Of a DNA stretch of 64,000 bases, positions 20,591 to 54,598 are shown piece by piece. The first letter of the stretch is position 1. Each line of letters opens with the position of its first letter. The translations under genes and the position numbers were made by a program. Source of the DNA: Microtetraspora sp. NBRC 16547 (GTDB taxonomy: Bacteria > Actinomycetota > Actinomycetes > Streptosporangiales > Streptosporangiaceae); assembly GCF_030268965.1 (NCBI RefSeq), contig NZ_BSSE01000003.1:186001-250000 (forward strand), in the 5' to 3' direction. The notes under the pieces were generated by a model, which was given only the letters and a program-made list of their open reading frames with translations, was not told the origin of the DNA and made no database searches.

Positions 20591-20763
20591 CCGCTTCGTG
20601 ATCCCCCCGGGTACGGCGACCTGCCGAGTCCGTGCAGTCAGGAGGCACGGAGCCGGGGACCCAAACGACCTTCATTCGAAGGTCCGGGGTGAATCGGCGC
20701 ATCGCGCGCCGTAGGGCGACTTCCCCGCCCGAATCCGTCAGCTAACCCGGTAGGCGCAAGCGG
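20591..20763 (+). ncRNA. c-di-AMP riboswitch (ydaO-yuaA leader)
   Basis: Hallmark ydaO/yuaA conserved blocks occur in order: GCCGGGGACCCA (about 20652), GGGGTGAATC (20686), CGTAGGGCGACTT (20710) and the diagnostic CGAATCCGTCAGCTAACC then GGTAGGC (20730-20755). P1 closes with CCGCTT (20591-20596) against AAGCGG (20758-20763). This class binds c-di-AMP and turns genes off; in actinomycetes it precedes cell-wall hydrolase genes such as rpfA and NlpC/P60. The P1 helix ends nine bases before the SD, and I see no separate terminator, so control could be at translation or by an overlooked terminator. Confidence 0.93.
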
Positions 20764-20769
20764 AAGACC

Positions 20770-20785
20770 ATAGGAGCGATCCTGT
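20770..20785 (+). promoter_or_regulatory. Small hairpin holding the SD and CTG start
   Basis: ATAGGA (20770-20775) can pair with TCCTGT (20780-20785) through a GCGA tetraloop, with one G-U pair. The stem contains the AGGAG ribosome site and the CTG start of the downstream gene, so it could dampen initiation or respond to the riboswitch. Confidence 0.4.
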
Positions 20786-53209: not shown

Positions 53210-54256
53210 TCACGCGGGCACCGGGACCGCGTGCGTGGCGTCGGCGAGCGTACGGCCCAGCAGCGGGGGGAACTGGCGCATCACCCGCGCGAGCTCGCGC
53301 AGGTCGCCGTTGACCAGGGCCTGGGGGCCGTCGCAGAGCGCCTGCTCGGGGTGGGGGTGGACGTCGATGATCACGCCGTCGGCGCCGACCGCGATGGCCG
53401 CGCGGGTGAGCGGCAGGACGAGGTCGCGGCGGCCGCCCGAGTGGGACGGGTCGATGATCACGGGGAGGTGGGAGAGCCGCTGCGCGACGGGGACCGCGGA
53501 GACGTCCAGGGTGTTGCGGGTGGCGGTCTCGAACGTGCGGATGCCGCGCTCGCACAGCACGATGTCGAGGTTGCCGCGCTGGGCGATGTACTCGGCCGAC
53601 ATCAGCCACTCTTCGATCGTGCCGCTCATGCCGCGCTTGAGCATGACCGGCTTGCCCGCCGCGCCGACCGCCTGGAGCAGCGCGAAGTTCTGCGTGTTGC
53701 GGGTGCCGATCTGCAGCATGTCCGCGTAGGACGCGACCAGCTCGACGTCGTGGGCGTCCACCACCTCGGTGACGATCGGCAGGCCGGTCTTCTCGCGTAC
53801 GTCGGCGAGGATCCGCAGGCCCTCCTCGCCCAGCCCCTGGAAGGCGTACGGCGAGGTGCGCGGCTTGAAGGCGCCGCCGCGCAGCAGGGTCGCGCCCGCG
53901 GCCTTGGCCATCTCGGCCGCCTCCAGGGTCTGCTGCGGGGTCTCGACGGCGCACGGGCCCGCGATCAGCGTCACGGTGTCCGGGCCGATCGGCACCCCGC
54001 CCACCCTGACGGTCGACCGTTCCGGGTGGTTCTCCCGGCTGACCAGCTTGTACGGCACGGACACGCGCATGACGTCCGCGACGCCGGACATGCCGCGCAG
54101 GTTCAGCGCCGCGAACCGTTCGACGTCGCCGACCAGCCCGATGATCGTCCGGCTCACGCCGCTGCTGACGAACGCCTCGCCGCCGGCCGTGGCGACGAGC
54201 CCGACGATCGACTCGATGTCGCCCTGGGTCGCCTCGGACCCCATGACGATGACCAT
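53210..54256 (-). CDS. aroF: DAHP synthase (3-deoxy-7-phosphoheptulonate synthase)
   Basis: First step of aromatic amino acid synthesis: PEP + erythrose-4-phosphate. I choose ATG 54256, which AGGAG precedes by five bases; a GTG at 54262 lies on top of the SD. 348 residues. N-terminal ferredoxin-like regulatory domain (about 1-75), then a (beta/alpha)8 barrel: TLIAGPCAVE, LLRGGAFKPRTSPYAFQG, IGTRNTQNF, CERGIRTFE and VIIDPSHSGGRRD hold the metal and phosphate ligands. This is the AroF/KDO8P-synthase-like class (I-beta), not the plant-like class II. Expression is predicted to be attenuated by the leader upstream. Confidence 0.95.
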   Translation of the reverse strand: MVIVMGSEATQGDIESIVGLVATAGGEAFVSSGVSRTIIGLVGDVERFAALNLRGMSGVADVMRVSVPYKLVSRENHPERSTVRVGGVPIGPDTVTLIAGPCAVETPQQTLEAAEMAKAAGATLLRGGAFKPRTSPYAFQGLGEEGLRILADVREKTGLPIVTEVVDAHDVELVASYADMLQIGTRNTQNFALLQAVGAAGKPVMLKRGMSGTIEEWLMSAEYIAQRGNLDIVLCERGIRTFETATRNTLDVSAVPVAQRLSHLPVIIDPSHSGGRRDLVLPLTRAAIAVGADGVIIDVHPHPEQALCDGPQALVNGDLRELARVMRQFPPLLGRTLADATHAVPVPA

Positions 54257-54296
54257 GGTCACTCCTAGTGGGTGCTGTCGTTTTCCTCGCGAAACG

Positions 54297-54334
54297 CGAA
54301 AGGCCCCGGGTCCGTGTGGACCCGGGGCCTTTCG
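54297..54334 (-). terminator. Attenuator hairpin ahead of aroF
   Basis: 17-bp perfect stem (arms 54297-54313 and 54318-54334) with a 4-base loop, followed on the minus strand by CGTTTCGCG. It begins 13 bases after the leader-peptide stop and ends about 40 bases before the aroF start, inside the leader. The 5' arm includes GGGTCC, which can also pair with GGACCC in the leader-peptide coding sequence (54381-54386), a possible antiterminator. Confidence 0.8.
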
Positions 54335-54347
54335 TTCGCCTTGGCTG

Positions 54348-54416
54348 TCAGCGCAGCGCTAAGGGGCGAGCGGTCCCTGCGGGTCCGTCGCCATACCAAA
54401 ACTCAGCGATACGCAT
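54348..54416 (-). CDS. Aromatic amino acid leader peptide (Phe-Trp-Tyr) upstream of aroF
   Basis: A 22-residue peptide from ATG 54416 to TGA 54348. It begins MRIAEFWYGDG and carries Phe, Trp and Tyr as three consecutive codons (TTT TGG TAT, 54401-54393), the three end products that control DAHP synthase. The stop lies 13 bases before the attenuator. A candidate -10 (TATATT, 54429-54424) is seven bases upstream of the ATG, so the leader may be translated from a leaderless or nearly leaderless RNA. No -35 is obvious. I see no strong SD. Confidence 0.82.
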   Translation of the reverse strand: MRIAEFWYGDGPAGTARPLALR

Positions 54417-54598
54417 GCCACGCAATATAGCGCATGTCCAACACTGCGAGCGGCGCCCTTCCCTTAAAGCGATCATGGGGTGAAGGGGCGATGCACCCCC
54501 GCGTCCGGCTCCGCCGATCACGCCGGGCCGACGGGCGGCGGAGCCGCTGGCGGGGTCCCGGTGGCGGGGAACTGAACGGCTGGTGGCAGGATGGCGAC

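Follow-up and report, generated by a model that had tools for sequence, protein, structure and literature searches.

The window analysed here, a stretch of 64,000 nucleotides, carries on its minus strand the DAHP synthase gene aroF of the B. subtilis/Thermotoga type (53210-54256). The aroF product scores 467.4 bits against PRK08673 (cut-off 335) and 387 bits against TIGR01361 (cut-off 267.75), and its best solved relatives are the DAHP synthases 1rzm, 1vr6 and 4grs, which we take to be of the Thermotoga type, class I beta. The start codon of aroF is ATG 54256, rather than the overlapping GTG 54262, and is preceded by the Shine-Dalgarno sequence AGGAG (54262-54266). Upstream of the gene and on the same strand, a leader peptide frame of 22 codons plus a stop (MRIAEFWYGDGPAGTARPLALR, 54348-54416), without a Shine-Dalgarno sequence, places the putative regulatory codons TTT TGG TAT (Phe-Trp-Tyr) side by side at 54393-54401. 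A spacer of 13 nt separates the leader stop from a predicted terminator hairpin of 17 bp with a 4-nt loop (54297-54334; -38.1 kcal/mol). The preliminary description had reported this frame with its three adjacent codons and the 17-bp hairpin ahead of aroF; both were read back from the window, the codons running from 54401 to 54393, and the NCBIfam models identify the gene as a DAHP synthase. The mechanical list of open reading frames puts the start of the leader frame at GTG 54521; because both conservation and a -10 box point to ATG 54416, the latter is taken as the start.

Several segments of the leader RNA are predicted to compete for partners. Region 1 (GGCGACGG, 54385-54392), whose first base comes right after the Tyr codon, would pair with region 2 (GGACCGCTCGCC, 54365-54376) to give the 1:2 hairpin. 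Alternatively, region 2 would pair with region 3 (GGCGAACG, 54333-54340), which lies between the leader stop and the terminator, and in this inner antiterminator helix the window's CGCTCGCC faces its GGCGAACG with one mismatch. It had also been noticed that GGACCC in the leader could pair with GGGTCC in the hairpin. The two hexamers, GGACCC at 54386-54381 and GGGTCC at 54323-54318 in the 5' arm of the hairpin, are reverse complements of each other. Their pairing covaries and forms the outer part of a larger nested antiterminator, in which GGACCCG (54380-54386) is the leader strand and CGGGTCC (54318-54324), from the 5' arm of the terminator, its partner. Folding of the 185-nt leader is 5.69 standard deviations better than that of its dinucleotide shuffles, none of 200 being as good. 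Rfam gave no relevant match at the leader, whether the entire window was searched with gathering scores or 54200-54480 with loose E-values. Elsewhere in the window, a c-di-AMP riboswitch lies on the plus strand at 20612-20771 (RF00379, 79.3 bits, gathering score 38).

Conservation of the leader in the family

The comparison was based on 150 genomes of the window's GTDB family, 144 of which gave a DAHP synthase match. Upstream DNA was covered for 149 of the 150 DAHP synthase places among the matches listed, the partial place G109:C29 being dropped, and the matches of four of the 144 matching genomes (G035, G039, G084, G091) lie outside the count. A homologous leader was found in 138 of the 140 main DAHP synthase copies examined; G117 has none, and the contig of G058 ends too early. 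The leader of G120, only two of whose aromatics cluster, was chosen by hand. The leaders are mostly 22-25 codons long, and their peptides are of three sorts, FWYGDGP as in the window, FFWYGQPG-like and FWRFYGYRP-like. Ahead of the first Pro, 127 of the 138 leaders hold Phe, Trp and Tyr and 11 hold Phe and Tyr only; counted over the whole peptide, all three aromatics occur in 129, and FWY is consecutive in 72. A hairpin below -15 kcal/mol accompanies the leader in 136 of the 138 loci.

Within the window's clade most leaders retain the motif FWYGDGP, as they might if the nascent chain itself stalled the ribosome or sensed a free amino acid in the manner of the arrest peptide TnaC. However, other clades keep the RNA pairings with different residues (GYRP, GQPG, DEPG), and conservation therefore follows the RNA. 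Since the pairings outlast the residue changes across clades, we reject an arrest peptide as highly improbable.

In 137 of the 138 loci the hexamer TANNNT begins 12-14 nt upstream of the leader's start codon, against an average of 0.6 of 138 for the other upstream slots. In the window it reads TATATT (54424-54429), and its conservation, together with the composition profile, predicts a transcript start at or adjoining the leader ATG. Between the leader start and aroF no TANNNT slot is common to more than five of the 138 loci, which argues against a transcript start downstream of the leader. Sequences of four nucleotides resembling a Shine-Dalgarno precede 2 of the 138 leaders, compared with 132 of the 138 aroF genes. 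Because the -10 box lies 12-14 nt upstream and a Shine-Dalgarno sequence is hardly ever present, the leader probably forms the opening codons of a leaderless mRNA, the start being deduced from the position of the -10 element. In addition, the first and last codons of the leader (MR...LR or MQR...LR) are complementary and covary, with 2 of 5000 permutations as good. Located at the predicted 5' end, such a helix might keep the leaderless start codon inaccessible; in the window it would lie near 54416 and 54348.

Codon choice at the sensing site differs from that of the gene itself. In 30 family aroF genes, Phe is encoded by TTC 196 times and by TTT 0 times, and Tyr by TAC 129 times and by TAT once, whereas the 30 matching leaders contain 30 TTT, 20 TTC, 30 TAT and 0 TAC. 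The last aromatic codon, placed by pattern in 135 of the 138 leaders, is TAT in 118, TTT in 10, TAC in 5 and TTC in 2. Because both codons of the Phe pair, and likewise of the Tyr pair, are normally read by one tRNA, our guess is that slow wobble reading accounts for UUU and UAU in the leaders, the alternative being avoidance of RNA pairing.

Competing helices and the modelled switch

Covariation was assessed in an alignment of 98 dereplicated leaders with 500 shuffles per helix. Three competing helices covary between clades, the 1:2 hairpin after the aromatic codons, the nested antiterminator and the terminator. Pairing in the terminator is 95.7%, with 167 double-change cells versus 59.6 in shuffles, none of 500 reaching the observed value, so that the hairpin covaries and does not drift freely. 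The outer antiterminator helix, GGACCCG:CGGGTCC plus one further pair, keeps 85.8% pairing and has 71 double-change cells versus 33.5 in shuffles (0 of 500 reach it); one of its column pairs is C-G in 38 leaders and G-C in 37, and another is G-C in 54 and A-U in 30. For the core of the 1:2 hairpin, with 89.5% pairing and a column pair that is C-G in 55 leaders and G-C in 33, the 36 double-change cells exceed the 14.3 in shuffles (0 of 500), while two of five measures are not above shuffles (changed pairs 299 of 500, pair types 296 of 500) and a slide of +3 also scores well. The covariation is largely between clades, and the double-change cells therefore stand for a smaller number of events.

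From clade to clade the inner antiterminator helix shifts its register, as in GTTCGCC with GGCGAAC and TGGTCTG with CAGACCA for region 2 and spacer, and for this reason partners were permuted among cluster representatives. With 16 representatives, from clusters drawn on the same sequences, and 5000 permutations, region 2 and the spacer pair at -11.97 kcal/mol versus -9.03 kcal/mol when permuted, and regions 1 and 2 at -14.96 versus -12.35 kcal/mol, with 0 of 5000 permutations as good in either case. In the same set of 16, the observed values of three control pairings were reached by 4740, 578 and 3921 of 5000 permutations. Pairing with the 5' arm was weakly better than under permutation for region 1 (100 of 5000) and no better for region 2 (1017 of 5000). 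The pairing test across all 138 leaders is also significant and ignores relatedness, and the 16-cluster test is therefore the one relied on.

Beyond its 3' arm the hairpin gives way to T-rich sequence, with 6.9 T in 15 nt versus 2.7; the stretch is short and interrupted, and TTTT occurs in 65 of the 138 loci. Measured in 136 loci, the distance from the hairpin end to the aroF start ranges from 15 to 106 nt, with a median of 41 nt. A hairpin could also act on translation by hiding the aroF ribosome site, transcription not being stopped, and leaderless cysteine sORFs of M. smegmatis have been reported to regulate translation of the downstream gene by attenuation (PMC9031893). For aroF such translational control is rejected as very unlikely, because the distance between hairpin and gene is variable, the Shine-Dalgarno sequence of the window's aroF is outside the hairpin, and the T-rich stretch follows the 3' arm.

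The folding of the 98 leaders was modelled with the ribosome as a mask, either stalled on the aromatic codons (short or long mask), at the stop codon, or absent. When the transcript extends as far as the spacer end, 97 of 98 leaders form the 1:2 hairpin if no ribosome is present, and 95 of 98 do so if the ribosome is at the stop; upon stalling, 9 (short mask) or none (long mask) of the 98 retain it. The 2:3 helix forms in 96 (short mask) or 98 (long mask) of 98 with the stalled ribosome, compared with 3 and 1 of 98 without a stall. For a transcript ending immediately ahead of the 3' arm, the 5' arm is largely base-paired with the leader in all 98 stalled leaders under the short mask and in 84 of 98 under the long mask; the same holds for 81 of 98 leaders whose ribosome is at the stop and for 67 of 98 that carry none, and the corresponding value for the window, with the ribosome at the stop, is 0.99. 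Since folding up to the 3' arm fails to separate the states, the model needs folding in the order of synthesis. Scored by the switch criterion, 91 of 94 real leaders switch in the model, four of the 98 leaders standing outside this control as their frame was not recovered. Of 470 leaders with synonymous recoding 214 also switch, and of 470 with a shuffled spacer 401. By this measure the leader sequence would matter clearly and the spacer only moderately.

Comparison of the genomes thus bears out a conserved leader with its codons, covarying helices and the position of the -10 element, and so supports the layout proposed in the preliminary description, attenuation reading all three aromatic amino acids. 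The locus is very probably a ribosome-mediated transcription attenuator of DAHP synthase, in which a single short run of codons monitors the charged tRNA-Phe, tRNA-Trp and tRNA-Tyr. The assignment of helices to states comes from the model; we infer from the sequence where transcription starts, that the leader is translated, that ribosomes stall in it, that transcription terminates and that each of the amino acids elicits a response. Transcription would begin at the leader ATG, and a ribosome would load on the leaderless 5' end. When Phe, Trp and Tyr are all plentiful, the ribosome would reach the stop codon and the 1:2 hairpin would form in the leader, leaving the terminator 5' arm free, so that the terminator halts transcription. 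When one of the three aromatics is short, the ribosome would stall on TTT, TGG or TAT and cover region 1. This would leave region 2 to pair with region 3 in the spacer, and GGACCCG to pair with the CGGGTCC in the 5' arm of the terminator. With this antiterminator formed, the terminator would not form and aroF would be transcribed.

Occurrence of the leader at other loci

A covariance model gave a full-length match in 71 of 75 family genomes (E <= 4.3e-17), the window's own lying at 54287-54416. In 69 of these 71 matches a listed aroF follows on the same strand at a distance of 8-102 nt. The match in G032, a genome with no listed DAHP synthase match, is followed by a 317-codon frame starting MVVVMAPEAT that is aroF-like by eye, and the one in G058 (contig C21) is at a contig end. 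Similar GC-rich hairpins elsewhere in these genomes give partial model matches (E 1e-8 to 1e-4), as would suit a simple terminator or insulator that separates divergent genes and is preceded by a fortuitous reading frame. However, frame, -10 box and helices are conserved together and are absent from nine second DAHP synthase copies examined. This explanation, contradicted by helices that covary with the leader codons, has next to no probability.

The next tier of model matches includes leaders such as MKRAAMTTTPESVPAR before threonyl-tRNA synthetase. Attenuator-like leaders of similar build (MKRAAMTTTPESVPAR, MQRAFVTTTPETVPAR) with a GC hairpin were seen before this gene at loci L313, L314 and L316-L318. 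At L318, in the window's own genome (C16:14900-17900), the leader end is seen at about C16:16372-16424 and the downstream protein matches TIGR00418. Such a threonyl-tRNA synthetase leader has already been reported as thrL of S. lividans (MKRVRPFLETTPGFVPAR; PMC8079986).

A second DAHP synthase match is present in 19 family genomes; the second matches of nine of the 19 are outside the count, and nine second copies were read. None of these nine (L182, L183, L210, L211, L225, L227-L230) has an aromatic leader. A class II match was found in 52 of 71 family genomes searched, including the window's genome, which has one class II DAHP synthase in addition to aroF; the 450 nt scanned upstream of that class II gene contain no aromatic-rich frame. 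Against the antibiotic-cluster model BagF/FevY, the window enzyme scores 629 bits, below the cut-off of 700. Because the nine second copies are without a leader and the window enzyme is below this cut-off, DAHP synthase copies without the leader may serve secondary metabolism.

In the taxonomic class to which the window belongs, 93 of 246 genomes have the enzyme, 72 of them outside the family, and 70 of these 72 upstream regions were long enough for comparison. An aromatic frame occurs in 29 of the 70 loci, versus 85 of 1400 shuffles, and in 23 of the 29 a -10 box lies at 12-13 nt. All three aromatics are in the peptide of 16 of these 23 leaders, and two aromatics in seven. In class family f19, none of its 20 loci is among the 23. 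As judged by this comparison of sequences, a related layout is present in other actinomycete families. Farther away, a stricter test of 64 named loci that belong neither to the window's family nor to its near kin is passed by 15, versus 81 of 1280 shuffles; several of the 15 come from Syntrophaceae or other Deltaproteobacteria and have frames resembling YYYWFY. At loci L062, L067, L071-L074, L101 and L107 of these bacteria, the same DAHP synthase type is preceded by frames such as YYYWFYTYF and NWYWFYYFF, and seven of the eight deltaproteobacterial aromatic frames have a VCP or ICP tail. The deltaproteobacterial frames are probably an attenuator of independent origin.

We tentatively propose, with a nearly even chance of being right, a three-input OR sensor in which the leaderless frame signals to the first enzyme of the shikimate pathway that Phe, Trp or Tyr is in short supply. 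Wobble-read UUU and UAU would have been chosen, against the UUC and UAC preference of aroF, for ribosome sensitivity; the sensor would be old in actinomycetes, with a look-alike in Syntrophaceae and other Deltaproteobacteria. It is possible, if somewhat doubtful, that an attenuator of the same build responds in practice to one or two aromatics, for example Phe, the other codons being kept for the RNA sequence or by history. The 11 of 138 family clusters that lack Trp fit such a narrower response, as does AroR of C. glutamicum, a Phe-Tyr-Phe leader for which a response to Phe and none to Tyr is reported (PMC11802643). Against it, 127 of the 138 clusters keep Phe, Trp and Tyr although just 72 have them consecutively, and outside the family the 16 of 23 leaders with all three aromatics outnumber the seven with two.

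Relation to known attenuators

The window's family is known for antibiotic producers, in which aromatic precursors matter, and the proposed attenuator would assign a control mechanism to the entry step of their aromatic synthesis. The three-input sensor would offer a natural system in which to study the weighing of three tRNAs within a single stall window and a possible role of wobble codons in setting its sensitivity. By word search, the main text of a 2005 survey of actinobacterial attenuators contains no aroF, aroA or DAHP (PMC1262725). The open PMC literature, which leaves subscription papers mostly uncovered, held no recognised Phe-Trp-Tyr leader for DAHP synthase. The attenuator is textbook in its logic; what is new is the three-aromatic sensor and its family-wide conservation.

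Neshat et al. reportedly described in 2014 the AroR leader peptide upstream of aroF in Corynebacterium glutamicum. The DAHP synthase of the window is of the B. subtilis/Thermotoga type, whereas that of C. glutamicum is presumably of the E. coli type. As far as the accessible text of the reports goes, AroR is the closest known system, with a Phe-Tyr-Phe leader peptide before aroF (PMC4046766, PMC11802643, PMC7356990). Similar to AroR, the window has an aromatic leader peptide and a predicted attenuator before a DAHP synthase gene in an actinobacterium; unlike the window leader with its Phe-Trp-Tyr, AroR is without Trp.

Similar to trp-type attenuators, stalling at regulatory codons would select among the 1:2 hairpin, the antiterminator and the terminator, but the trp-type ones sense a single amino acid, Trp, and control trp genes. 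E. coli trpL is of this type, and the trp leaders of Corynebacterium and Streptomyces are assigned to it as well (PMC1262725). Leaderless leader peptides have been reported in S. lividans, namely trpL, leuL, ilvL, metL and thrL, where the -10 motif is also TAnnnT (PMC8079986). In mycobacteria, leaderless attenuator leaders are likewise reported (PMC9031893, PMC4633059), among them polycysteine sORFs (PMC9031893). As in these, the sensor frame of the window is predicted to start at the 5' end of the mRNA, but they concern other amino acids and other genes, and none of the eight leaders named in the accessible part of the S. lividans report is for aroF. The shikimate pathway would thereby join the leaderless attenuators reported from mycobacteria and Streptomyces. 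Finally, similar to multi-input attenuators, one leader would sense several end products of a branched pathway. Such are ilvL and thrL of E. coli and, according to its published description, the 'LVVI' leader of ilvB1 in M. tuberculosis (PMC13236596), which carry branched-chain or Thr/Ile codons rather than those for three aromatics.
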